Below, piece after piece: positions 24,638 to 38,165 of a DNA stretch of 49,291 nt. Positions within the stretch are counted from its first letter, which is position 1. Each line of letters opens with the position of its first letter. The notes beneath the pieces are model-generated. The model was not told the DNA's origin. It saw only the letters and a list, made by a program, of their open reading frames with translations, and made no database searches. Source of the DNA: Methylobacter sp. (lineage in GTDB: Bacteria > Pseudomonadota > Gammaproteobacteria > Methylococcales > Methylomonadaceae); assembly GCF_004322395.1 (NCBI RefSeq), contig NZ_SCTW01000080.1, forward strand, positions 1-49,291, written 5' to 3'. The translations under genes and the position numbers were made by a program.

Positions 24638-25270
24638 ATGTATATAATCCGGCTCGTTTTTATTCCGCTGCTGTCTGTTTTGCTGCTGTCTTTGGCGGCC
24701 TGTACAACATCTTCATCACAATTCTATATGCTGGAGCCGATCACTGGCATTGAGCACAAAAGCCCAACCGGAATCACCCAAAAACCGGTTATTATCCTTT
24801 CGCCGGTCCGCATTCCACACTATGTGGACAGACCCCAGATCGTGACCGCGAACGGTAAAAACGCCTATCAACTGAACGAGCTCAATCGCTGGGCCGAGGC
24901 ATTGGATCACAATATCGGCCGCGTGTTGGCTCAAAATCTTACGATTATGGTGCCGGCGGAGGTAGGGTTTTCCAGTACTTCAACTACGGCAGAACGGGCG
25001 AACTTCCGGGTATCCGTCAATATTCTCGAGTTTCATGCAGACCCGCAAGGACAGGCCGGTTTGACTGCACAATGGCAGATAACCCGCAGCGACGGAGCAT
25101 TAGTGAATCGGCAAGTATCGTACCGTGCGCCGGCTTCGACCTCCGACTACCGTATTATCGTGGAAGCGCTCAACGATTGTCTCAATCGTTTGAGCCGCGA
25201 CTTGGCCGATGAAGTACGGAGATTGGCAGATGACAAATCCGCCATAAACAAAGCCGACCGCCGATTTTAA
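24638..25270 (+). CDS. PqiC-like auxiliary lipoprotein (ABC transport)
   Basis: 210 residues from the ATG at 24638, with GAGGAG seven bases before it (a TTG at 24632 is less likely). Lipobox LAAC (Cys22). The mature part carries FYMLEP, PVRIPHYVDRPQIV, LNRWAEALDHNIGRVLAQNL and ISRDLA-like C-terminal helices of the PqiC/YmbA family. Such lipoproteins dock MCE transporters at the outer membrane. The operon therefore has PqiC rather than MlaA/MlaC as its distal partner, a hybrid of Mla and Pqi types common in some proteobacteria. Confidence 0.9.
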   Translation: MYIIRLVFIPLLSVLLLSLAACTTSSSQFYMLEPITGIEHKSPTGITQKPVIILSPVRIPHYVDRPQIVTANGKNAYQLNELNRWAEALDHNIGRVLAQNLTIMVPAEVGFSSTSTTAERANFRVSVNILEFHADPQGQAGLTAQWQITRSDGALVNRQVSYRAPASTSDYRIIVEALNDCLNRLSRDLADEVRRLADDKSAINKADRRF

Positions 25271-25375
25271 TAAGGATATTCCCAAGCGAGAATTTTGATG
25301 TCTGTTTCTCTTACCTCCGCCAAGGGCTTATTTTTCATTCCTACCCGACTGTGCAGCCGGTGATTTGTATCAATC

Positions 25376-25420
25376 TAAAAACCGCAGTCAGTCCACGAAA
25401 AGCACGAAGTCACGAAAAAA
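25376..25420 (+). repeat. Partial copy of the MITE-like element end
   Basis: CTAAAAACCGCAGTCAGTCC and the following CACGAAAAGCACGAA match the left end of the element at 8187, and the similarity continues through AAATCAGTATGTT (AAATCAATATGTT in the first copy). The opposite inverted end is not found nearby, so this is a truncated copy. Confidence 0.6.
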
Positions 25421-25542
25421 ATCAGTATGTTTTATTATATAGCCATTCACCTTTTTAATGATGATTCTCGGCAACTGCTCCTGCATAACCCAGATGGACG
25501 TATCATCGTTATACACAAGTGTCTGGGAAGCACGACGGTTTT

Positions 25543-25735
25543 CGTCATCCCGGCAGGGATTGCCAGAATCCACGACTGCAAGGATGCAGGAGGTAGAGCA
25601 ATGCATGGAGCAATTGCCGAGAAGCCATGGATGGCAATACCGAAGCAGGCACAAGCCTTGCGACGCGGAATTGCTTAGTTAATCAGGCATTCACATCCTG
25701 TGCTCTGGATTCCGGCAATCCCTGCCGGAATGACG
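25543..25735. repeat. Inverted-repeat pair of a GTCATTCCGGC-type repeat
   Basis: The 30-base arm at 25543-25572 and the arm at 25706-25735 are inverted copies with two mismatches (shared core CCGGCAGGGATTGCC). The right arm also folds alone: ATTCCGGCA, loop ATCCC, TGCCGGAAT. Together with the neighbouring repeats they fill the 564-base gap between the lipid operon and the DUF72 gene, where no gene was found. Confidence 0.65.
25580..25624 (+). repeat. Dispersed repeat, copy 1 (GGAGGTAGAGCAATGC)
   Basis: This 45-base stretch recurs at 44915-44958 with only a few changes; the exactly shared core is GGAGGTAGAGCAATGCA, then GGAGCA and TTGCCG. A weak third relative is seen at about 25767-25800. 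It is an intergenic repeat with no coding sense. Confidence 0.65.
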
Positions 25736-25834
25736 TGCTTTTAAATACTTGTGCATAACGACGAGGATGGACATGGGGAATGCATAAGCAATTGCCAAAA
25801 GGGTTTAAGAGAAGAGATTTAAAATGAACTTTAT

Positions 25835-26572
25835 ATGCAATCACTATACATAGGCACTAGCGGCTGGAGTTATCCAGACTGGCAAGACTGCTTTTACACC
25901 GGCGTCACCAGAAAAGGCTGGCTGAAATTCTACGCCGAGCGTTTTTCTGCGGTAGAAATCAACGGCACTTTTTATCGTTTGCAAAGTCCCGACACTTTTA
26001 AAAAATGGTTCGACGAAACCCCGGCCACATTCAGATTCGCATTAAAAGGCAATCGCTACTTAACGCATAATAAAAAACTACTTGATCCCTTGCCGTCGGT
26101 ACTTATCGAGAAAAATCATGCCGGTGCGCTCGGAGAAAAGCTGGCCTTGGTATTGTGGCAACTGCCCGGCTTATTGAAAAAAGACTTGAACCGGTTAAAA
26201 AATTTTATAGATGCCTTACAACAATGGCCTGAAGCGCGCCACAGCATAGAATTCAGGCACAATTCCTGGTTTGACGATGAAACGGCGGATTGTATGACTG
26301 AGGCTAATATTGCTGTTTGCCTGTCGGACGCAGAGGCTTGGCCGATGTGGGATCGTACTACCACAAACCTAGTTTATATTCGTTTGCATGGACATACACA
26401 AACTTATGTCTCTCCCTACAGTAAACCCGAACTGGCCTATTGGGCCGAGCGCATTGCTCAATGGACTCAACAAGGCAAAGAAGTACATGTTTATTTCGAC
26501 AATACCGCCGAATGCGCCGCACCTTTTAATGCCTATACTTTGCAAGCTCTGGTAGAAGATTACGGAAGATAA
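25835..26572 (+). CDS. DUF72 family protein (YecE-like)
   Basis: A 245-residue cytoplasmic protein of the DUF72 TIM-barrel family. Seen: the opening IGTSGWSYPDW, the segment SAVEINGTFYRLQSP, FALKGNRYLTH, IEFRHNSW, YIRLHGH and the late YFDNTAECAAPFNA. Length is normal. Biochemical role unknown; a phosphoesterase-like or nuclease activity has been suggested from the fold but cannot be confirmed here. It is a single gene after a repeat-rich gap. Confidence 0.88.
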   Translation: MQSLYIGTSGWSYPDWQDCFYTGVTRKGWLKFYAERFSAVEINGTFYRLQSPDTFKKWFDETPATFRFALKGNRYLTHNKKLLDPLPSVLIEKNHAGALGEKLALVLWQLPGLLKKDLNRLKNFIDALQQWPEARHSIEFRHNSWFDDETADCMTEANIAVCLSDAEAWPMWDRTTTNLVYIRLHGHTQTYVSPYSKPELAYWAERIAQWTQQGKEVHVYFDNTAECAAPFNAYTLQALVEDYGR

Positions 26573-26623
26573 GGCTTTTCAGGAGCGATTGCCGCCTTCC
26601 TTAGTGCCGTAATTGCCCACCGA

Positions 26624-27313
26624 TTATTGAAAACCTCCTGCCCGCCGCTCTTGCACCTGACCATTAACCCCAATCAAAACCGTCGTTGCCAGCCCATAAA
26701 AAATACCATGCTCAACAATGCCGGGGATGCTATTTAAAATATCGTTAAGTGTTTCAGCATCGATATGTTCATCAAAGCTCATATCCAAGATTAAACTGCC
26801 GTAAGAGCTCATCGCAAAGCCGTTTTTATTGGCATTTTGGCGTAAATCGCCACGCCCACCGCTTGCTTCCAGCTGCTTTTTAATCAGTTGCCACGCAAAA
26901 GGCATCACTTCAATAGGGATCGCAAAATTCTGACCGATTTGCTCAACCAACTTGCTGGGTTCAACCAACACTAAAAATTGCTCGCTGGCGACTGCCAGCA
27001 GTTTTTCGCGTACCAGATCGGCCCCCTGCCCTTTAAGCAGGGTTAGTTCCGGCGACACTTCATCAGCGCCATCGACATACATATCAACGTGACTGACCTG
27101 CTCGAAACCGAGCACGGGCAAGCCAAGCTGTTGTGCCTTGATCGCACTCACAACCGAGCTGGCGACGGTAGTCACTTTAAGCCCCTGCTCACGGCTGCGC
27201 TGCGCCAGTTCCTCAATAAAGCAATTTGCAGTCGAACCGGTACCCAGGCCGACCAGCATGCCATCTGTCACTTGGTTGGCTGCATGTTTGGCAACCCGTT
27301 CTTTATCGTTCAT
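26624..27313 (-). CDS. rpiA: Ribose-5-phosphate isomerase A
   Basis: A 229-residue cytoplasmic enzyme interconverting ribose 5-phosphate and ribulose 5-phosphate in the pentose phosphate pathway. Motifs: VGLGTGSTAN (phosphate loop), DMYVDGADEV (catalytic Asp), LLKGQGAD (Lys) and GGRGDLRQN. Complete. The site AAGGAG precedes the ATG. Its first codons and ribosome binding site are repeated at 35236-35272, just behind yedI, implying that an insertion moved this gene away from its former upstream partner. Confidence 0.97.
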   Translation of the reverse strand: MNDKERVAKHAANQVTDGMLVGLGTGSTANCFIEELAQRSREQGLKVTTVASSVVSAIKAQQLGLPVLGFEQVSHVDMYVDGADEVSPELTLLKGQGADLVREKLLAVASEQFLVLVEPSKLVEQIGQNFAIPIEVMPFAWQLIKKQLEASGGRGDLRQNANKNGFAMSSYGSLILDMSFDEHIDAETLNDILNSIPGIVEHGIFYGLATTVLIGVNGQVQERRAGGFQ

Positions 27314-27325
27314 GGTTTGCTCCTT
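27289..27325. repeat. Direct repeat, left flank of inserted island
   Basis: 37 bases covering the rpiA ribosome binding site and first eight codons, identical to 35236-35272 in the same orientation. It marks the left edge of an island of roughly 7.9 kb. Matching bases continue (ATG, two mismatches) a little further into rpiA. Confidence 0.85.
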
Positions 27326-27471
27326 AATGTAGACAGGACTGAATTAATACTACAACAATCCTTGTAATGCCGATTTCCACGCGTCGGAAACAATGCCTCC
27401 CGCCTGCCGAAGTAGACACCGCGTTGGCGATTTATGCAAGGCGCTTGATCAAACTCATCGCATAGTCGACA

Positions 27472-28290
27472 CTAATAGCCGGCCTCCAAGATGACTCTTT
27501 GTACATCCGGCGGCAGCCGTAGCGGCAACTGGGGAAATAAAGGGGAAATCCTGTATTTGCCCTGATTACCCAGCTTTGGTTCAGAAGCGTATATCCAAGC
27601 CTGCTCCACCTTATCGTTCGGTGCCGCCTGATTAGGCCATTGCCCTGTAAACGAACTGATGACACCGGGGGTATTGTCAAAATCCAACGTGTAGTAATAC
27701 ACAGCCTTGCTCTGCATGTAGGTGACCAATTGCACGGAAAAATCGGTGTCCGGCCAAAACCAGCCGGGGTTGGTAACTGCACTGCGAATAGGGCAGCCGC
27801 ACATCATCGTCACTTTGGCAAAACAGCTTACCTCAGAGCTTTGCCAATCGGCCTGCACGTTGCTGATGCATAATCCCGGCACTTCAATCACCAAGCCTTC
27901 GGGGTTCTGTGGGCTAGCTCCAATGTTCACGCCCGGCAGCACTGTAATATCCGCTTGCGCTATCCGCGCTTGATCGGGATGGCTCAAAGGGCCGAACACC
28001 AGCACCCTAAAATCGGTCGGCTCTGAAATATCAACGCTCAATTGTACCTGGACTGTTTTGTTATCGGTCGCAAAAGGCGCACTCCGGCTCACGGGGCTCA
28101 TTAAATCCGCCGGCCCGGCACTCAGCGGGTTTGAAGCATCGGCAACCCCATAGGCGACCAGCTCTTCCGTTACCGGATTCAACAGAAACACCAGCGCACT
28201 CTGATGGCTCGCATTGGCCGCATCGGGGCCAAGGTATTTACCTCCGCGGGCTGCCGGACGGACAAGAAGGGTTGTAAGCTGTTTTTTCAT
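27472..28290 (-). CDS. Unrecognised protein with MCGC motif (island)
   Basis: A 272-residue protein I cannot assign. It lacks an obvious signal peptide (starts MKKQLTTLLVRPAARGGK). Predicted mostly beta, with a short Cys-rich motif in the middle (CFAKVTMMCGCPI) that could bind a metal or form a redox pair, and aromatic strands later (YYYTLDFDNTPGVISSF). It is the last of three minus-strand genes in the inserted island, 219 bases after the CxxCH protein. GC-rich like its neighbours. Start chosen at 28290, preceded by a GGAGAA site. Confidence 0.7.
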   Translation of the reverse strand: MKKQLTTLLVRPAARGGKYLGPDAANASHQSALVFLLNPVTEELVAYGVADASNPLSAGPADLMSPVSRSAPFATDNKTVQVQLSVDISEPTDFRVLVFGPLSHPDQARIAQADITVLPGVNIGASPQNPEGLVIEVPGLCISNVQADWQSSEVSCFAKVTMMCGCPIRSAVTNPGWFWPDTDFSVQLVTYMQSKAVYYYTLDFDNTPGVISSFTGQWPNQAAPNDKVEQAWIYASEPKLGNQGKYRISPLFPQLPLRLPPDVQRVILEAGY

Positions 28291-28449
28291 TGTATATTTT
28301 CTCCGTTCATTGAAGCTTTTGATCTAATGCTGGAAATTCTAAATAGCTAAGGTCAGGCTTGATTTATCCCGTCGGAAGTTAACCCGACGGAACAGAGGGT
28401 TGAACGGCAGCGCGTTAATTCGAGCCGCCCCATTTTTCTTGACGCATTT

Positions 28450-28475
28450 CCCTCTTCCGCCTTTGCAGAAGAGGG
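28450..28475. terminator. Hairpin between island genes
   Basis: CCCTCTTC, ten-base loop, GAAGAGGG. It lies 35 bases beyond the stop of the CxxCH protein gene on the minus strand. A second hairpin (CCGTCGG ... CCGACGG, about 28371-28391) follows. Neither has a T-run, so these are possible terminators or mRNA-stability elements. Confidence 0.4.
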
Positions 28476-28509
28476 GCTGCGCGCTTCCGGCATTTCTAAT
28501 GCAATGCGC

Positions 28510-29940
28510 TTATTTGGCGTGTTGCAACAGGAAGCTGAAGTCGGCCGGTTTACCGGCGGTGGTGGTAGCCATATTATGACAACTGATACAAGACGCCGAT
28601 GCCTGGTCGTAAGTCTCCATGGTCATATTGGAAAGCGCGTGGGGGACGCCGAAAGTGGAGTTCGGTGCAGGTGTGTTCTCTGTCCCTCCGAGCCACTGGC
28701 TACCGATCAACTGGTAGTTGGCCCAAACCGTTCCGCTGAGGTTATACTGCCAGAGTGCGTTGATCGCCTGGGTATAATCGGGGATCGGAACCATCCGTAC
28801 CGTCTGAGTGCCGAAGGCGTTGCCTTTTCCATCGTTGAAGGCTGCCGTTGCCGCATACGGTGCCGTGGCGGACCATTTATAGGTCTTTTGCTTGTTGAGG
28901 ATATTCTGGAAGCAGGTCGACGAGGAGCAATCGTGGTTATAGAGATTCTTGCCCGCATAGTTGGTATTAGCGCTCAGGTCGTTGATGTCTGGAGCGTTGT
29001 TTACCTGCTCGAAGGTCGACCATATCCAGCCGAAGCTGGAGGGTTTATAGAGGATGTGCATGCCGACTAGACCGACGGTGACGTTCTTGATGCTAAAAGC
29101 CTTGCCCGAAACGCTGTGGGCTTTATCCACATTGATCGTCGCTTGACGGGTATAAAACTGTGAGACTTGGTCATTTCCCGAAAGAATTTTCCACGCGGCC
29201 TTGATCTCCATGGAACCGGGGGCGCCCGGTGCCGTTTGTGTCGGCAGGACGCTGGTCGGAAAAAACACTGCGGGCGCAGTCTGCTGGCCTTTCTTGGTGT
29301 TCAGCCCATTCTGCATGATGTAGCTGACTTCGGTAGGATTGAGCCGGACTTCATACACCAGATAATTGAGATTGTTATCCACCATCGGCTGCCCCGATGC
29401 TTCGATAAACTCCGAAAGGGGACTTCCCGGAGAACCGTCCACCTTCGAGAGTTTGCCCATGATCTTCACGCCGCCGGGAAATTTCTCCGCCGTGGCGCTT
29501 CCTTTCTTAGCTGTTGAGGAGGAACCGAAGACATTCGCCGTGTCGTCAAAATACTCCCAGACCCGGAAATTGCCGGGATCGGTGCCGATGTTAACGTTAG
29601 CTCCTGATTCGGGATTTCCGTTGCTATCCGCAGGCCAATTGAGAGCGGCGAAGACCTGCCAGGAGAACATATCGAAGCAAGGCTGATCCTGCACATTGAA
29701 TGCCTGATAACCTTGCGGGAAGGTATTCGCTACAGAAAGGGGAAGCGTGGAACTGACGGTAACCGTTGACGGACAGTCCATCTGCGGCGGCGTGGGCGGA
29801 GTGCTTTCCTTGGTATTTTGCGCCTGAGGAGCCGTCCCCGTAGTTTCGGCCTGCTTGTCTGCCTCGGAGTCTTCTGCGAAAACAGCCGCAGAAACTAATA
29901 ATGCCCCGGTTAAAAGTGCTATGTCTATACGCTTTATCAT
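28510..29940 (-). CDS. Exported CxxCH (cytochrome c-like) protein (island)
   Basis: A 476-residue exported protein: signal peptide ending FAED (about residue 22), a low-complexity Thr/Gln/Pro linker (about 25-55), then a large globular region with PCFDMFSWQVFAALNWP, VGLVGMHILYKPSSFGWIWSTF and a C-terminal CISCHN at about residue 450. The single CxxCH would carry one covalently bound haem c if the cell has a maturation system. The rest is not a known small cytochrome fold. The middle gene of the island trio, it may be an oxidoreductase partner of the beta-helix protein; that is inference. Confidence 0.75.
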   Translation of the reverse strand: MIKRIDIALLTGALLVSAAVFAEDSEADKQAETTGTAPQAQNTKESTPPTPPQMDCPSTVTVSSTLPLSVANTFPQGYQAFNVQDQPCFDMFSWQVFAALNWPADSNGNPESGANVNIGTDPGNFRVWEYFDDTANVFGSSSTAKKGSATAEKFPGGVKIMGKLSKVDGSPGSPLSEFIEASGQPMVDNNLNYLVYEVRLNPTEVSYIMQNGLNTKKGQQTAPAVFFPTSVLPTQTAPGAPGSMEIKAAWKILSGNDQVSQFYTRQATINVDKAHSVSGKAFSIKNVTVGLVGMHILYKPSSFGWIWSTFEQVNNAPDINDLSANTNYAGKNLYNHDCSSSTCFQNILNKQKTYKWSATAPYAATAAFNDGKGNAFGTQTVRMVPIPDYTQAINALWQYNLSGTVWANYQLIGSQWLGGTENTPAPNSTFGVPHALSNMTMETYDQASASCISCHNMATTTAGKPADFSFLLQHAK

Positions 29941-30049
29941 AGTTTCTCTCTGAATTAAGGTAATTAAAAAAGTTATTAGGGCCGGATTTTATTTATCCCC
30001 TCGTTTCTCGTTCCGGCCCAATGCTTAACTACTAACGGAAGCGATAGTT

Positions 30050-30083
30050 GGAGGGCGGCAAGACTGCCCTCCTTTTTATTTTT
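30050..30083 (+). terminator. Stem-loop with T-run at the end of the beta-helix gene
   Basis: GGAGGGC, nine-base loop, GCCCTCC, then TTTTTATTTTT on the plus strand. It is 12 bases beyond the stop of the minus-strand beta-helix gene; as a classical terminator it would face plus-strand transcription into that gene, while on the minus strand it is only a hairpin. Confidence 0.5.
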
Positions 30084-30094
30084 ACCGATAGGCG

Positions 30095-33000
30095 CTAAGG
30101 CCCCTCACAACTATAGGGTCCAGCCCCAGGGCCGATGTTGTTGGTCGGGGAACTCGTCCCCATTTGACAGCAATTATTACTGCTGCTGGTAAAACCAATT
30201 CCGTTTGCAGAGACTGTAAATTTCTGGCTGCATGAGCTGGCCGGCGGATTGGTGCTGGTTGCGGACAGCAAGTACGTTTGCCCCGGCGATAACAGGACAT
30301 ACGAGGTTTTGGGATTCACCGTCACGCCCTTGATGGTAGCCGTTACGTTCGCCGGGAGGCTCAAGGTAAAACGGGATTGATAAGGCCCCTGCCCAGGGCT
30401 GAGGATGGTGTTCCCGCTCGTACCCATCTGACACAAATTACTGCCAGCACTGGTAAAGCCGTTTCCGTCCTGATTAATCGTGAAGTTCTGGCTGCATGAA
30501 CTGGATGGATTGCTTTTTTTACTGGTTGCGGACAGCGTGTATGTTTGTCCCGGAGACAACAGGAACGATTGGGTTCTGGAGTCCATCGTTACGCCCTGGA
30601 TGGTGGCTGTTACCTTAGACGGGAGCTTCAAGGTAAAACTCCCGTCATAAGGGCCCGCAGCAGGACTGATGGTGGTATTACCACTCGCCCCCAACTGACA
30701 CCAATTAGCGCCAGTGCTGGTGAAGCCTGTTCCGTCCTGGTTAACCGTGAAATTTTGGCTGCATGAACTGCCCGAATTGCTGTTGGTTGCGGACAGCAGA
30801 TATGTTGTACCCGGAGTTAACAGGACAAAAGAGGTTCCTGGGATCACCGCTACGCCCTGAATGGTGGCTGTTACGTTCGCCGGGAGGGCCAAGGTGAACA
30901 CCTCTTCCCCATTTTTGGGTGCTGGCGGCCAATCCGGCTGCGTCGGTGCATTGGTGGGGCAGAAATCCTTCGGTGCTTTAGTGAGCTCATTGTGCGGAAA
31001 ACCTCCATTGGCTCCATGGAGCGCCGTCTGGATGGGTGTTTTATTGCTGTAGGCCAATTGGTTCAGATCGCTCGGATAGGGTTGCTTGTAATCAACCGCA
31101 CCGCCGCTACCGCCATAAGGCGTGCATGCCGACGGGGATCCAGGCGCGTAGCTGCTGTCCACTTGGATCGTGTAGAGCTCGCAACCTGGACCAGGGCAGG
31201 AATAGAAACTCTTATCCGCGCAGATTCCGTCTGCATCCTTGGTCCCGGCGCAGCTCCCAAGCGGGGACGAATATGGCCCGCCGGCGTTAGGTTGTTCCTG
31301 AACGACATTGAGAAACAACAGGCCGCTGGTTGAGTCGTAGAAATAGCACTCGCCATTCGGACATTGCGCCGGATCGTCCAGGTCGGCGATTGTGGAAACG
31401 CTAGGCAGCGGGGGAGGCAGCACAGGCGTTGGCGCGAGAGTTGGCGCGTATGGACAGAGTGTCGTGTAGCAGAACGGAGTTGCTGTTGTTCCACTGCCAC
31501 ACATGACGTTGTCCAGGCCGGCGCACTGAAGTTCGCTGGAGAAATAGGCTGACAGAGTACTAAGATTGTTGTTGGGAGAAGCGAACGACTTGCCGCCCTT
31601 GTAGACCTTGAACGCCGATGCATCGGGCGTCGCCGTCATATTCTCATTCTTATAGCAGATGCCTACCCGTGTATGGAAAGGGTTCGTCGCAGAAATCCCA
31701 TTTGGCAGCTTCGCATCGGTGTACATCAACGAGACGAAGTTGGGTATACCCGCTGATGCACCGACGGTGTAACCGAGTCCGTTTACCACCTTGGGTTCGT
31801 AAATGCCATTGCCATTGCGGCCGGAAAGCGCCACGCAAGCGTGCCCGGGAACGCCGGGGTCACTTGCGCCCGCGGTTCCGCCGCAGTTCACCGCATACAT
31901 AGTGTTGCCGCTGTCGATCGCAGTATCGGTGAACTGAATGTTGCCGCCGTAGTCCTTCTGATCCTTGGTGAAAACCAGGACGTTATTGTTCTGACAGTTC
32001 GGTTGTCCGGGTGTCACGACACCGTTGCAAGGCGCCGTCAGCGCGGAGAACTCGAGCGTGGCATAGCTGTATGGGCTGATCAGCGATGTCGGACGCCCCT
32101 CAAGCGCCTGATCCTGCTGCCCGGTCGAAAGACACTCGTCAACGGTACCCGGCCCGGCCAGGAACGGGAGATTGTTCAGCGAGATCGGATAGGCATCCGG
32201 CACTGAAGACGGATTTGTGCCGCTCGAAACCACTTGGAGGCCGGTGAGACTCTGGTCGCGGTCAAGGATGACCGTGAATTTATCGCCGTCGCGGAAGTTG
32301 CTTCCCGTACCCGACGGGGCTGCAGTTGGCCCGACATCCTGCGTGTATACCTGATGGCGCAGATCGACGTTGACGTAGCTGAGTTCCTTGACGTACTGCG
32401 TCGGCGGATAGCTATTAACGTTGGATTGGAACCAACCCATGGCGGCATCGCCCTCGTATACGAACGGCTTGTTAGGCTGCCCCGGAATTGTGTTGCCGGA
32501 CGACGAGTAATAATTAAGGTAACTGAGATCCGCAGCCGTCAGGTAAGGAGTAATATCCTTGTTGAAGTTGACGAATTTAACGTTTTCGAGTCGTGCAGGC
32601 CCATCGTAGAACATCATACCGGCGAAATTCCAGCTTGGCGCCGGGTAACCGTTGCCTTGCACCGGCTCATAGCAACCGGCGCTGCCGCCGAAGCTGTTCT
32701 GGTTGGAATAAGGGCAAGGACCGAAGCGTAACGGGTTGTTGGCGCTGATCCCCACGATGATCGCGTCTTTGAGCAGGCTCCACTCGCCCGGAGGAGAACC
32801 TTCGGTGCCGCCGCTGGAAACCAATGAAACGCTATCGCGGTTAGTCGCGAGCCGCGCTTGCTTGATGGCATACCAGCTTGCCCGTACCCAGATGCCGCGG
32901 TTACGGTTGCGGGTGGCGGTAAGGCCGTCGAATTCGGCCACTATATCGCAATTTGCACCCGTGGCCCCGCTTCCTGCAAGACATGCTCCTTGCGGAGTGT

Positions 33001-34633
33001 AATTAAGCGCCCCCGTTACTCCGTTATCTGAAGCGGTATCGAAGCCGGTGTAGCAACCGTGGGCGCGGTTGTTGGCAAAGCCGCCGGGCGGAATGGCGGC
33101 GGTCACTGCGGGCGTATTATTCCCCGGAAGTATCCAAAAACCGCGTCCGACCGCTTGGCATCCGGCGATGGAATTGCCGGTAAAGGTATTGCCGCCGAGA
33201 TTGGTGATCCAGAAGCCTGATGCCGTGTTTGCTGCTCCATTCACCGGGCTGGTTCCTTCTGTATCGGTAAAAGCCACGTTGAAACCGTTGTAACCGTTGT
33301 CATTCGCAAGATAGTCGCCGCTCCAAAACGCGGCGATTGCAGCGGCGTTTGGAACGAGGTTTGGAGGGGTGCCTATCTGGGGAATAAGGAATGCATTGCT
33401 CATCGCGCCGATGCCGAGGTTATTGATGAATGCATCGTTTGTCTCGGTGCCCATCTCCAGGAAATACAGGTGCCCGACAGCACGGGCGCAGACGTTGTTG
33501 GAGATCGTCACGCCATTCGTCGCATGCAGGGTGACGCACTTGTTGTAGCTGTGGTGGATGCTATTGCTGTCGACCAGCACCGTCCCCGCTGTCACCGTAC
33601 CGGCCTCGTGGAAGTGTATCGGATAGCTACCCACTTTATCCTTGCCGAACTTCTCGATTTCCACCCCCTGGATCGACACTTCGTTGAAGCCCTTCATGAT
33701 TTTGATTTCGCCGCCGTTGGCGGTGTCGCTGCCGGTAATCGTTGCGGTAAGCTTGATGTTGCGGCTCACCAGCCCCACCTCGGCCCGCTCGTCGACACCG
33801 TAATTCTGGGTTACGCCGTCGTTGAAGGCCGCAGCGCCGCTATCGGGGGCCGGGCCGCCGTAGTGGTAAGTCACCAGCGGCGTCTTGGCGTCGAGAGTGA
33901 CGGTGCAGGCACCCGTAGTGGGGTTCTGGCAATTGACCGTCGAGATGCGGACGAACTCGGCGCTATCGGGAGAGAAATCGGTACCCGCGACGACAATCCA
34001 CTGGCCCGGCTGCCAATCGACCGTATCGCTGAGCTGGAGCGTTGTCGCTGCACCTGCCGCCACGGGACTGGCGACGCCAAGATTCGTGCCGTATAGCTTC
34101 GACGGACCGGCCGGGGCGGCCAAGTAAGTCCAGCTTGGCGCCTGGGGATTGCTGCCTACTGGCGGTTGCGCGGGGACGACGCCGGTCTTGCCAAAAAGCA
34201 TCAAACTGCCGCCGGCGTTGACGGTGATGCCCTTGGTTACGGTTGCTACCGCGCGCGCATCGGTGAAATTAATCGTGACGGCGTTATTGCTTGCGATCGG
34301 GTGCGCGGAAGAACCGGCTTTGAGCGTTCCGTTAACAACAATTCCCGAAGTATCCAGCTTTCTTCTACCGTTCTTGTTATCAAAAACGAGCGTGCCTCCT
34401 GATGCAATAGTGATGACGCCTAAGCCACCGGTACCGGTGTACGATTGATCGACGTAGACGTCTGGCCCACAGCCGCCGGAGCCGCCGATGGTGACGTTGC
34501 GGTTGCTGTCAAATGTGCACATAGAGAGCGACACGGGAGCCGCGGCTCTTGCCTCGCGATCCGGCACGAGAAGCCCCGTAGCAGCCAGCAAGACGCTCAG
34601 GAAAACCGAGGTTGATCGTAATGAAGTTAGCAT
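30095..34633 (-). CDS. Giant secreted G8/CEMIP-like beta-helix protein (island)
   Basis: About 1512 residues. Signal peptide, then a G8-like region (about 45-160, glycine-rich short strands), then a segment very close in style to animal CEMIP/TMEM2: VDWQPGQWIVVAGTDF, RAEVGLVSRNI, SYPIHFHEAG (about residue 340), NSIHHSYNKCVTLHATNG and GHLYFLEMGTE, followed by right-handed beta-helix turns. The C-terminal quarter holds three tandem modules of about 87 residues, each with FTL-LP--VTATI-GV, a CSQ-FT segment and a final Cys. The ATG at 34633 has GGAAA in front; one at 34645 has no site. CEMIP and TMEM2 act on hyaluronan; a polysaccharide target here is inference. Confidence 0.85.
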   Translation of the reverse strand: MLTSLRSTSVFLSVLLAATGLLVPDREARAAAPVSLSMCTFDSNRNVTIGGSGGCGPDVYVDQSYTGTGGLGVITIASGGTLVFDNKNGRRKLDTSGIVVNGTLKAGSSAHPIASNNAVTINFTDARAVATVTKGITVNAGGSLMLFGKTGVVPAQPPVGSNPQAPSWTYLAAPAGPSKLYGTNLGVASPVAAGAATTLQLSDTVDWQPGQWIVVAGTDFSPDSAEFVRISTVNCQNPTTGACTVTLDAKTPLVTYHYGGPAPDSGAAAFNDGVTQNYGVDERAEVGLVSRNIKLTATITGSDTANGGEIKIMKGFNEVSIQGVEIEKFGKDKVGSYPIHFHEAGTVTAGTVLVDSNSIHHSYNKCVTLHATNGVTISNNVCARAVGHLYFLEMGTETNDAFINNLGIGAMSNAFLIPQIGTPPNLVPNAAAIAAFWSGDYLANDNGYNGFNVAFTDTEGTSPVNGAANTASGFWITNLGGNTFTGNSIAGCQAVGRGFWILPGNNTPAVTAAIPPGGFANNRAHGCYTGFDTASDNGVTGALNYTPQGACLAGSGATGANCDIVAEFDGLTATRNRNRGIWVRASWYAIKQARLATNRDSVSLVSSGGTEGSPPGEWSLLKDAIIVGISANNPLRFGPCPYSNQNSFGGSAGCYEPVQGNGYPAPSWNFAGMMFYDGPARLENVKFVNFNKDITPYLTAADLSYLNYYSSSGNTIPGQPNKPFVYEGDAAMGWFQSNVNSYPPTQYVKELSYVNVDLRHQVYTQDVGPTAAPSGTGSNFRDGDKFTVILDRDQSLTGLQVVSSGTNPSSVPDAYPISLNNLPFLAGPGTVDECLSTGQQDQALEGRPTSLISPYSYATLEFSALTAPCNGVVTPGQPNCQNNNVLVFTKDQKDYGGNIQFTDTAIDSGNTMYAVNCGGTAGASDPGVPGHACVALSGRNGNGIYEPKVVNGLGYTVGASAGIPNFVSLMYTDAKLPNGISATNPFHTRVGICYKNENMTATPDASAFKVYKGGKSFASPNNNLSTLSAYFSSELQCAGLDNVMCGSGTTATPFCYTTLCPYAPTLAPTPVLPPPLPSVSTIADLDDPAQCPNGECYFYDSTSGLLFLNVVQEQPNAGGPYSSPLGSCAGTKDADGICADKSFYSCPGPGCELYTIQVDSSYAPGSPSACTPYGGSGGAVDYKQPYPSDLNQLAYSNKTPIQTALHGANGGFPHNELTKAPKDFCPTNAPTQPDWPPAPKNGEEVFTLALPANVTATIQGVAVIPGTSFVLLTPGTTYLLSATNSNSGSSCSQNFTVNQDGTGFTSTGANWCQLGASGNTTISPAAGPYDGSFTLKLPSKVTATIQGVTMDSRTQSFLLSPGQTYTLSATSKKSNPSSSCSQNFTINQDGNGFTSAGSNLCQMGTSGNTILSPGQGPYQSRFTLSLPANVTATIKGVTVNPKTSYVLLSPGQTYLLSATSTNPPASSCSQKFTVSANGIGFTSSSNNCCQMGTSSPTNNIGPGAGPYSCEGP
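30110..30897 (-). repeat. Three tandem coding repeats of about 262 bases
   Basis: The C-terminal modules of the beta-helix protein begin near 30897, 30637 and 30371 (minus strand). Each encodes an Ig-like or carbohydrate-binding-like unit with the conserved pieces PANVTATI, LLSPGQTYLLSAT, SSCSQ and GFTS. DNA identity is still visible, for example GTCCCCGG-type spacers and CTGCATGAACTG, implying fairly recent duplication or gene conversion. Confidence 0.75.
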
Positions 34634-34645
34634 GATGATTTCCAT

Positions 34646-35212
34646 TTTTTTATTATTATTCCGGTAAGAGTGCCTAAGTCATTTTAGGGGAGCGCTGAAC
34701 AAGTCATTTTTGCTGATGGCCTGACAAGCGCATAACAAACGGAATCAATACGTTACCGTTCATTCTAAGCTCGTCGAAGGATTTAATCAGCGCGTCCTTG
34801 CGTCCTTAGGTAAGACTCTTAAAGTATTTCTTGGTTTCCGCAGGCTCCACAGGAACCCGGGCAGACTAGGCTGTAGAGGCCGTCATCGGGCACAGTGCAA
34901 TTCTAACATTAGAACACTTTCTTTTAATCTACTTTAATCTTTCGCGCCCTGCGATTTATCGTCGTTATGCAAGCCATTTAGTATGCATACCTACGTGGAT
35001 GAATCATTCACCCTGCGGCTTAATCCAGTCAATCCAGGAAAACGCGCTGCAACAGCACGGTAATGCACACTAACACACGGACAACCGACTTACGATGAAT
35101 GATAAGGATCGTTTCAGGCGTTGAAAATTCTTTTCGGCAAGATTGCAAACATCTACCGGCCAATATTCGTAACAAGCTCAAAGACTGGAAGAGGTTTTGC
35201 GCTTCAAATATC
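34646..35212. other. Upstream non-coding region of the island
   Basis: Non-coding stretch before the beta-helix gene. I see a degenerate copy of the common TTCATTCTAAGCTCGTCGAA repeat near 34758-34782, two direct TTTAATCT pieces near 34922-34943, and no convincing gene, integrase or tRNA. The promoter of the beta-helix gene must be here but cannot be pinned down. Confidence 0.4.
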
Positions 35213-35260
35213 TCACGTTATTTTTTCTTGATGCCTGGCAACCCGTTCTTTATCGTTCAT
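35213..35260 (-). pseudogene. Truncated 5' copy of rpiA
   Basis: Begins MNDKERVA exactly as RpiA, continues RHQEKIT and stops after 15 codons. It has the same AAGGAG ribosome binding site and lies 19 bases after the yedI stop, just where rpiA would sit in an operon. It is the abandoned start of the original rpiA locus or an insertion-generated duplicate. Confidence 0.8.
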
Positions 35261-35272
35261 GGTTTGCTCCTT
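35236..35272. repeat. Direct repeat, right flank of inserted island
   Basis: 37 bases identical to 27289-27325, in the same orientation. It marks the right edge of the island and is the functional-looking start region of the rpiA fragment. Confidence 0.85.
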
Positions 35273-35279
35273 TATAAAG

Positions 35280-36260
35280 TCAATGCGGTACATTTTCCTT
35301 CTTGAGATACTGATATTTGAATCGATTATAAACTTGTCCCGCCATGGTCACACCAGCTAACGCAAGCGCCCCGGCAACGACGCCTGCCAATGCATTGAGC
35401 AATGAGGAAACCAACACTTCCAGCACGCCGCCGATGCCGGGCGCGACGTTGACGCTTTGTGCAAGGTGCTCTATGTACTGGTGCGCTACAGGAATGCCGT
35501 GCATCAATATCCCGCCGCCCACCATAAACATCGCCGCAGTGCCGACAATCGCCAGCATCTTCATTAGGTAAGGCGCGCTGTGCAAAAAGACCTGGCCGAC
35601 CTGATGCTGGATTTTCGTCCACAGACCCTGACCCGGCTTTTGGCACAGGTAAAGTCCCGCATCATCCAGTTTCACGATGACTGCTACTAGGCCATATACA
35701 CCCGCAGTCATAATCAGTGCAATGCCGGCAATCACGGCCACTTTGGTTGCAAAAGCCGAAGTTGCGACAGCTCCTAATGTAATGACGATGATTTCTGCCG
35801 ACAGCACAAAGTCGGTACGAACGGCGCCCTTGATCTTATCTCGTTCGAATGCCACCAGATCGGTCTCGGGATTGGCGATTGCCATAGCCAGTTCGGCACG
35901 GTGGGCTTCATCTTCAGCATGCGTATGCAGCCATGGGTGCGCCAGTTTTTCAAAACCCTCGAAACACAGATAAGCGCCGCCCAGCATCAGCAACGGTGTG
36001 ATCAGCCAAGATGCCAGCCAGCTGATTGTCAGCGCTGTCGGCACTAAGATCAGTTTATTTTTTAATGAGCCTTTCGCCACTGCCCACACCACCGGCAGCT
36101 CCCGCTCCGCCCTGATACCGGACACCTGCTCGGCATTCAGCGCCAAATCATCGCCCAAAACGCCGGCTGTTTTCTTCGCCGCCATTTTGGTCATCAAGGC
36201 CACGTCATCCAGGACTGAGGCGATATCGTCAAGTAAAACTAAAAGGCTGGTGCCGGCCAT
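35280..36260 (-). CDS. DUF808 inner-membrane protein (YedI-like)
   Basis: A 326-residue integral membrane protein. It opens with MAGTSLLVLLDDIASVLDDVA and has KNKLILVPTALTISWLA, a soluble middle segment containing HPWLHTHAEDEAHRAEL, then four to five further hydrophobic segments. This matches the DUF808/YedI family in length and order. Function unknown; some members are described as transporters without firm evidence. It ends just upstream of the rpiA fragment and was probably once the first gene of a yedI-rpiA unit. Confidence 0.88.
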   Translation of the reverse strand: MAGTSLLVLLDDIASVLDDVALMTKMAAKKTAGVLGDDLALNAEQVSGIRAERELPVVWAVAKGSLKNKLILVPTALTISWLASWLITPLLMLGGAYLCFEGFEKLAHPWLHTHAEDEAHRAELAMAIANPETDLVAFERDKIKGAVRTDFVLSAEIIVITLGAVATSAFATKVAVIAGIALIMTAGVYGLVAVIVKLDDAGLYLCQKPGQGLWTKIQHQVGQVFLHSAPYLMKMLAIVGTAAMFMVGGGILMHGIPVAHQYIEHLAQSVNVAPGIGGVLEVLVSSLLNALAGVVAGALALAGVTMAGQVYNRFKYQYLKKENVPH

Positions 36261-36407
36261 ATTGGGCTCTTTGGGATAGAGGTTGAAGAAGAGATAGCGG
36301 ATTTTTATGGCTCAGTTATCTCGATTTAAAATATTAGTTTATTTTACGCCTTTAATTATGAGCTGAGATATCCGGCTCAAAAGCTTTGTTTATAGGTTCA
36401 ACCACAA

Positions 36408-37808
36408 TTAAATAACAATCTTTTCCCCTACCCGAGGAATATTAGCGCTCCATCCAATCCGCTTTAAACAGGTTTGTAACGATAGCGTGGCCGTTTTTTC
36501 GCCATGAATCAGGTAAACTCTCGGCTTGGGTTCTTTAAAATGCCCCACCCATTGCAGCAATTGGCTTTGATCGGCATGAGCGCTTAATGCACCCAATGTA
36601 TGCACTTTGGCGGCGACATTGACTTCAGCGCCCAGAATTTTTAAATGCGATTTTTTACCTTCAACAATAGCCCGCCCTAATGTACCTTCGGCCTGAAAGC
36701 CTGCAATGATGATATGTGCATTGCGCCGCCACAAATTGTATTTAAGATGATGACGGATGCGCCCGCCGGTACACATGCCGCTGCCGGCAATAATAATGAT
36801 GCCACCGTTTATACGGTTGACGGCCATGGACTCTTCGGCTGTCTCTGAATAGATCAGCCCCGGTAACCAGGCTTGCCAGCCGTCGGGCGCGACCTTGGTA
36901 AATTCGGGATCGTCGATATTGAATAAATGCGCATTCTCAGCGTAGATGTTGCTGGCGCTGATCGCCATCGGGCTGTCCAGGTAAATCTGCTGTTGCGGCA
37001 GTCCGCCATTGCGCTGAATTTTACCCAGCCAATAAATCAAATCCTGGGTTCTGCCTACCGCGAAAGCCGGAATGATCACATTTCCGCCGCTTTGTGCGGC
37101 TTCCGCCAATGCTTCGCGCAATTCATCCAGGGTATTTTCCAGCGGCTTGTGGTCACGGTCGCCGTAAGTGGATTCAAGCAATACTACATCGGCTTCGGTT
37201 AAAACAGCTGGATCGCGTAGTAACGGCGAATTCGGGTTACCCAAATCCCCGGAAAAAACCAATGTCTTAGTTTTATCTTTGTCCTTAATACGCAAGCGCA
37301 CGATGGATGAACCGAGTATATGCCCTGCCTCATGAAAAGAGACGCTCAGCTCGGGACGTATTTGGGTTTCCGCACCGTAGGCTATCGGCTGACGCAATGC
37401 CAGTAACGCCTTTACATCGGCTTCTGTGTATAAAGGTTCAATCAGCGGTTTACCGGCACGTTCCCGACGCTTGTTTTCCCATTCGGTATCCCTTAACTGA
37501 AGATGGGCGGCGTCCATCAACATCAATTCCAATAGCGGAAAACTGGCCTCAGTTAAGAATACAGAACCTTTGAAGCCGCCTTTAATCAGCTTCGGCAAGC
37601 GTCCACAGTGGTCGAGATGGGCATGGGACAAAACCACGGCGTCAATGCCGGCCGGATCAAACGGAAAGTCGGCTTCATTTTGTTTTTCCGTTTCCGTTGA
37701 ACCTTGAAACAGCCCGCAATCAAGCAGTATGCGGCTGGAACCGGTTTCCAATAAATAACAAGAACCGGTAACCTGCCCCGTTGCGCCTAGAAAAGTCAGA
37801 CTTGTCAT
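36408..37808 (-). CDS. MBL-fold beta-CASP metallo-hydrolase (RNase type)
   Basis: A 466-residue cytoplasmic protein combining a metallo-beta-lactamase domain with a beta-CASP domain and a C-terminal RNA-specificity motif. Seen: TFLGATGQVTGSCYLLE, the zinc motif SHAHLDHCG, HEAGHILGSS, FSGDLGNPNSPLL, the beta-CASP pieces PAFAVGRTQDL and GSGMCTGGRIRHHL, FQAEGTLGRAI and LSAHADQSQLLQW. Family members are endo- or exoribonucleases related to CPSF73. Complete. A small gene ends 15 bases upstream and may be co-transcribed. Confidence 0.92.
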   Translation of the reverse strand: MTSLTFLGATGQVTGSCYLLETGSSRILLDCGLFQGSTETEKQNEADFPFDPAGIDAVVLSHAHLDHCGRLPKLIKGGFKGSVFLTEASFPLLELMLMDAAHLQLRDTEWENKRRERAGKPLIEPLYTEADVKALLALRQPIAYGAETQIRPELSVSFHEAGHILGSSIVRLRIKDKDKTKTLVFSGDLGNPNSPLLRDPAVLTEADVVLLESTYGDRDHKPLENTLDELREALAEAAQSGGNVIIPAFAVGRTQDLIYWLGKIQRNGGLPQQQIYLDSPMAISASNIYAENAHLFNIDDPEFTKVAPDGWQAWLPGLIYSETAEESMAVNRINGGIIIIAGSGMCTGGRIRHHLKYNLWRRNAHIIIAGFQAEGTLGRAIVEGKKSHLKILGAEVNVAAKVHTLGALSAHADQSQLLQWVGHFKEPKPRVYLIHGEKTATLSLQTCLKRIGWSANIPRVGEKIVI

Positions 37809-37823
37809 TGCAATTCCTTACAG

Positions 37824-38165
37824 TTAATTAGAGCTTAATATACGATGCGCCATACTAATGACCAACTTTGATTTGTGCTCTTTCATTTCATTATTCAGGA
37901 TGAAAGAGTACATGCGGCCATAATTCCTGCGCAGCCTACAGAGGGAACCGAAGCTTCGCTTAAAAACACCAATTTTTAGCGCTATCAGCAATTGCTCCAT
38001 GCTTTTAATCTCGATCATTGGTACCGACCCTTCCCATCCTTGGAGTCGTAATTCCTGCATCGGATGAAGTTGCCAAATTTCCTCGAACGATGTGTTAATG
38101 TTAAAATTGCCTATCGCCAAGTTGCCCGGTAAAAAACTGATTATCCTATTAATAAGGTTTGTCAT
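37824..38165 (-). CDS. Small hypothetical protein upstream of the beta-CASP gene
   Basis: 113 residues from the ATG at 38165 (another start at 38183 would overlap the promoter region of the divergent transpeptidase gene). It is not recognised. It is rich in Leu, Ile and Arg with the pieces MQELRLQGWEGSVPMIEI and MEQLLIALKIGVFKRSF, and has no signal peptide. The 15-base gap to the beta-CASP gene supports a shared transcript. Confidence 0.45.
   Translation of the reverse strand: MTNLINRIISFLPGNLAIGNFNINTSFEEIWQLHPMQELRLQGWEGSVPMIEIKSMEQLLIALKIGVFKRSFGSLCRLRRNYGRMYSFILNNEMKEHKSKLVISMAHRILSSN

Follow-up and report, generated by a model that had tools for sequence, protein, structure and literature searches.

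The window analysed here, a stretch of 49,291 nucleotides from a Methylobacter sp. genome, contains three genes that interrupt a yedI-rpiA junction and are flanked by an exact 37-base direct repeat, which is best read as a stretch where two rpiA starts are identical, one of them cut off and the other complete. yedI, the cut-off start (a 15-codon stub), the three island genes and rpiA are all encoded on the minus strand, and on this strand the order is a beta-CASP-like gene, yedI (DUF808), the repeat with the stub, a G8/CEMIP protein, a cytochrome-c-like protein, a 272-aa protein, the repeat again and rpiA (Table 1). The locus is a well-preserved scar of gene acquisition, and no mobile-element gene was found in the insert.

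Table 1. Coordinates of the features at the yedI-rpiA locus, given as positions in the window.
Feature	Position	Strand	Remarks
Intact rpiA, 229 aa	26624..27313	-	PF06026, TIGR00021
37-base repeat, copy at intact rpiA	27289..27325	-	12 bases 5' of the ATG and first 25 coding bases
Leader of intact rpiA beyond the repeat	27326..27353	-	Resembles leaders of rpiA genes not directly behind yedI
Island gene, 272 aa	27472..28290	-	Unassigned; without a match in Pfam, NCBIfam or PHROGs at the limits used
Island gene, 476 aa, cytochrome-c-like	28510..29940	-	Single CxxCH close to the C-terminal end; signal peptide apparent by eye
Island gene, 1516 aa, G8 domain and CEMIP beta-helix	30095..34645	-	PF24606, PF10162; apparent signal peptide (by eye)
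Palindromic repeat of ~115 bases, MITE-like, inverted ends	34683..34797	-	Inside the yedI-side end of the island; recurs in the genus
rpiA stub, 15 codons	35213..35260	-	Similar to rpiA over its initial 25 coding bases only
37-base repeat, copy behind yedI	35236..35272	-	Exact match to the copy at intact rpiA
yedI (DUF808)	35280..36260	-	PF05661
yedI last codons	35282..35307	-	Resemble the yedI-rpiA spacer of G007 and G015

The two copies of the repeat were found to be identical over all 37 bases and in direct orientation, as stated in a preliminary description of this DNA, and the three genes that it placed between them were likewise confirmed. The bases adjoining the copies are unlike each other on both sides, and the number of exact 37-mer pairs expected by chance is ~1e-9, assuming equal base frequencies. 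When the whole genome (157 contigs, 4.59 Mb) was searched with the 35-base core of the repeat, allowing up to 3 mismatches, exactly these two places were found, and the reversed core pattern gave 0 matches under the same limits; an abundant repeat unrelated to rpiA, which the preliminary description had named as the finding that would speak against an insertion, is thereby ruled out. The copy behind yedI starts 7 bases past the yedI stop codon, with the stub ATG at 35260 fitting the claimed distance of 19 bases, and the frame that it opens reads MNDKERVARHQEKIT followed by a stop, i.e. the 15-codon rpiA stub that had been proposed. The similarity of the stub to rpiA stops at the edge of the repeat, beyond which 673 of 3000 random sequences were as good, and the stub side thus shows a non-homologous junction, with an abrupt boundary after coding base 25. 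A second rpiA in the genome, on contig C19, is only distantly related (38% identity).

The assembly is a draft of 157 contigs, and 37 bases lie within the range where short-read assemblers can misjoin, so a separate circle or contig could have been joined to this locus via the repeat. Even so, the 37 bases would have to exist twice, in different surroundings, for such a misjoin to arise, and the yedI-side end of the island holds a repeat family found elsewhere in the genome and the genus, the MITE-like palindrome having whole or partial matches at at least 7 other places in this genome and at least 26 in G018. We therefore consider an artefact very improbable. A partial match to the same palindrome was also seen on a Methylotuvimicrobium plasmid.

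The locus was compared with a genus sample of 23 genomes (this one and 22 others), 14 of which, including this one, contain a match to yedI. Four of the relatives (G002, G007, G013 and G015) have an intact rpiA directly behind yedI and in the same direction, which represents the empty site. In G009, alone among the 14, a trhO gene in the opposite direction lies between yedI and rpiA (locus L033, 1848-2825), and eight of the 14 have no rpiA start within ~220 bases behind yedI. A trace of an rpiA start behind yedI was sought in the nine genomes without adjacency (G009, G008, G006, G021, G001, G019, G022, G011 and G018), and the best local score of each fell within the random range (384-1460 of 1500 random sequences as good). 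Adjacency of yedI and rpiA is thus a minority arrangement, one of several in the genus: the neighbours of rpiA vary between nifJ, yedI and trhO, with rpiA facing nifJ in G010, G019 and G021 and lying beside trhO in G004. In the present genome, the sequence shared upstream of nifJ is preserved over ~90 bases and an adjacent rpiA was not found, a state that counts in favour of the rpiA-anchored recombination proposed below; a trhO ortholog seems to be absent, as only partial matches of 27-30% identity were obtained. In G011, a stray 3' fragment of rpiA (approximately codons 194-228) was observed on contig C42 (L049, 9791-9894), flanked by genes for an efflux outer-membrane protein and an AAA-type ATPase, and the same genome has a full rpiA elsewhere.

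None of the island genes has a close copy in the 22 other genomes of the genus. The 272-aa protein was matched in its own genome only (1 of 23), the G8 protein additionally by one partial match of 35% identity in G018 (2 of 23), and the cytochrome-like protein by matches of 33-36% identity in G009 and G012, one of them nearly full length (3 of 23). Taken together, the four empty sites and the lack of close copies in the genus indicate that the yedI-rpiA junction was interrupted here. This agrees with the earlier claim of a unit split by inserted DNA, for which an empty site in relatives had been suggested as the check and island genes between yedI and rpiA in all close relatives as the contrary outcome, which did not occur. 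The "original yedI-rpiA unit" of that claim holds for this locus and not for the genus, since adjacency is only one of several arrangements.

The preliminary description had also regarded the DNA between the repeat copies as more GC-rich, which turned out to be a weak point when GC content and codon usage were compared over 28 genes. The three island genes have a GC content of 0.54-0.57 and a GC3 of 0.60-0.67, and the other 25 genes range from 0.39 to 0.56 and from 0.38 to 0.68, respectively, with yedI at 0.54 (GC3 0.61) and mlaE at 0.56 (GC3 0.68). The codon usage of the island genes also overlaps that of the other genes, so the island is not set apart from host genes, and composition was dropped as proof of foreignness.

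The 40 bases before each repeat copy were compared with the rpiA leaders of relatives, divided into seven not directly behind yedI (G021, G019, G011, G009, G001, G003 and G010) and four that are yedI-linked (G002, G007, G013 and G015), with 3000 random 40-mers as reference. None of the random sequences equalled the leader of the intact rpiA in summed similarity to the seven non-yedI-linked leaders, whereas 858 did so for the four yedI-linked ones. Against single leaders, the numbers of random sequences reaching the same score were 1 (G021), 9 (G019), 13 (G011), 16 (G009), 53 (G001), 104 (G003) and 314 (G010), the last two not being significant, and the match is short (~25-28 bases) and located next to the ribosome binding site, a region under sequence constraint. 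The pattern common to the intact rpiA leader and that of G021 includes TATTAA, GTCC and TACATT. Among 189 leaders consisting of a ribosome binding site and ATG, only the intact rpiA leader itself and three of the four comparison leaders were as good against G009, G019, G021 and G011, these four having been selected after an earlier leader comparison. At 13 sites that separate this group of genomes from the four yedI-linked ones, the intact rpiA follows the former at 10, the latter at 2 and neither at 1, a count that is biased as the group includes G009, the genome with the nearest rpiA. The 40 bases before the stub copy, on the other hand, lean weakly towards the yedI-linked leaders (155 of 3000 random sequences as good, anchored comparison) rather than towards the others (1176 of 3000).

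On the yedI side, the C terminus of YedI is longer here than in relatives, and the last codons of the gene resemble the yedI-rpiA spacers of G007 and G015 (8 of 2000 random 48-mers as good in each case), which counts as approximately one observation because the two genomes are near relatives. No such match was obtained in unanchored comparisons with the spacers of G002 (661 of 2000) and G013 (1310 of 2000). A longer spacer match in G009 (1 of 2000) was set aside, as it consists mostly of the yedI end and the rest allows two competing alignments.

Since the leaders differ on one side of the repeat and a sharp join lies 25 bases into the coding sequence on the other, the two copies are read as two different rpiA starts. 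With moderate confidence, we attribute them to recombination that was anchored in rpiA at one end of the incoming DNA and illegitimate at the other. The locus would originally have been arranged as yedI, spacer and rpiA. Incoming DNA of ~7.9 kb would have ended in a differently wired rpiA, comprising at least its leader and start and perhaps the whole gene. One end would have recombined by homology within rpiA, yielding a complete gene with its own leader, which may serve as the active promoter, and the other end would have been attached by a non-homologous join after coding base 25 of the resident rpiA, whose start would have been left as a stub behind yedI. That both ends were resolved in a single event, and in this order, is presumed. 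The identity of the two starts over 37 bases would follow from conservation of the stretch: rpiA of G009, 88% identical overall (i.e. ~12% different), carries the same 37 bases. It counts against the model that, for two independently inherited alleles ~12% apart, an identity of 37/37 would have a chance of ~1% if the stretch were unconstrained. The leader evidence is in line with the earlier proposal that the inserted DNA brought an rpiA start of its own.

A history in two steps accounts for the two leaders equally well. Another rpiA, together with its leader, would have become linked behind the yedI-linked one, by duplication or by single crossover of a circle, and the first copy would later have been deleted from codon 9, with the foreign genes arriving in either step. 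This sequence of events fits nearly as well overall and is in keeping with the varying neighbours of rpiA in the genus (nifJ, yedI, trhO) and with the occurrence of an rpiA 3' fragment besides the full gene in G011. It requires more events, though, and a duplicate full-length gene of this rpiA type was seen in none of 41 genomes; where a further full copy exists, it is of the distant kind (35-41% identity), and the remaining additional matches, in G011 and G017 (the latter at the end of a contig), are fragments. We consider it unlikely.

Site-specific integration explains the identity of the copies most directly, as it is expected without any extra assumption. The rpiA start would be the attachment core, expression of rpiA would be maintained from a leader supplied by the element, and the integrase would have been lost or would act from elsewhere. 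Exact 37-base direct repeats do flank DNA that is absent from relatives, and an empty site exists. The preliminary description had noted that no integrase is inside, and indeed none of the three island proteins matched an integrase, phage-type or transposase model, two of them also being without a PHROGs match. A decayed integrase was sought at 34650-35240, where 17 stop-to-stop frames are present, and no match was found for the 4 compared with Pfam, 3 of which were also compared with PHROGs; these left-end frames likewise gave no transposase match. Furthermore, a degenerate pattern of the rpiA start had 0 matches in viral contigs, and the sequence 5' of the intact rpiA resembles the rpiA leaders of relatives, which the inner end of an integrating element need not do. 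Integration at an attachment site is therefore judged rather improbable. The mechanism had been left open between a lost integrase, mobilisation in trans and homologous recombination; of these, recombination by homology, at one end, is now favoured, and the lost-integrase reading is less supported, because the rpiA-side copy appears to sit within a more extended leader of rpiA type. Homology-anchored insertion is thus preferred to duplication of an attachment site, and overall the locus represents gene transfer of an ordinary kind that has left an unusually clear scar.

Searches with the three island proteins did not identify a donor, nor another genome with the island beside an rpiA. The nearest relatives of the G8 protein are encoded at two loci, in a Ramlibacter MAG and a Proteobacteria MAG (59-63% identity), where the other two island genes are absent from the 22-24 kb compared; three weaker matches are in plasmid records. 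Of 369 genomes of the class, 8 contain a match to the cytochrome-like protein, this one among them; the best of the others have 36-40% identity, and the match in G009, at 33%, is therefore little further removed than any of these. Nineteen plasmid records contain relatives of less than 60% identity, and no relative was found in the genome contig collection searched. The 272-aa protein is matched at 26-28% identity in six plasmid records of Sphingomonadales-type hosts. The three genes were not found together in the compared loci, those from the class search reaching ~1500 bases to either side. In single-gene trees, this genome groups with G010 and G001 for rpoB, with G009 for rpiA and with G009/G008 for yedI, a conflict that fits exchange within the genus. 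A broader and rather doubtful extension would make the rpiA start a recurrent landing point in the genus, at which repeated rpiA-anchored gene capture would swap promoter and neighbours of rpiA, a sugar-phosphate gene, while keeping it intact, as exemplified by the present three-gene insert, trhO in G009 and the stray 3' piece in G011.

The G8/CEMIP and cytochrome-like proteins are probably exported, judging from apparent signal sequences at their starts. The 3' part of the G8 gene contains three tandem units of ~264 bases (30245-30898), corresponding to C-terminal units of the protein, and a CBM_4_9 match to them lies just under the curated cut-off. A C-terminal CxxCH is also seen in relatives of the cytochrome-like protein. 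A relative annotated as cytochrome C in Azospirillum ramasamyi adjoins genes annotated as sorbitol dehydrogenase and GMC family oxidoreductase, and by analogy a role in electron transfer from an oxidation outside the cytoplasm is suggested; no partner of either type is encoded within the insert.

Genomic islands that carry an integrase have flanking att repeats at both ends, empty sites in relatives and an intact target gene. The present insert is similar in its flanking direct repeats, the empty site in relatives and the intact target gene, but differs in that no integrase was found and that the rpiA-side repeat appears to be embedded in a more extended leader of rpiA type. The locus serves as a caution that exact direct repeats bracketing inserted DNA need not be attachment sites, and comparing the leaders on both sides with those of relatives can separate two gene starts from a duplicated target. 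Unlike a transposon with target-site duplication, the insert has neither a transposase match nor inverted repeats at its ends, as none of the three inverted repeat pairs of at least 18 nt in 25000-38000 is located at the two island ends. At 25543-25735, 3' of Mla-type transporter genes, two 30-base arms of 93% complementarity form an inverted repeat with 133 bases between them. In a limited literature search for islands at rpiA, the sole match was a different kind of locus, the variable region of Streptococcus suis with defence genes between rpiA and trmE (PMC5398294). Variable genes adjoin an rpiA there as well, but the organism and the gene content are unrelated, and a repeated rpiA start is not mentioned in the parts of that report consulted. 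The closest parallel is homology-facilitated illegitimate recombination, a process described in transformation and conjugation that has also been put forward as a model of how Vibrio secretion clusters arose (PMC3240628; PMC5361080), the fate of displaced genes being treated in the latter (PMC5361080). Whereas the present case is deduced from one genome alone, it shares with those accounts a probable homology at one end, the non-homologous join at the other, the addition of genes and the retained remnant of a displaced gene (PMC3240628; PMC5361080).
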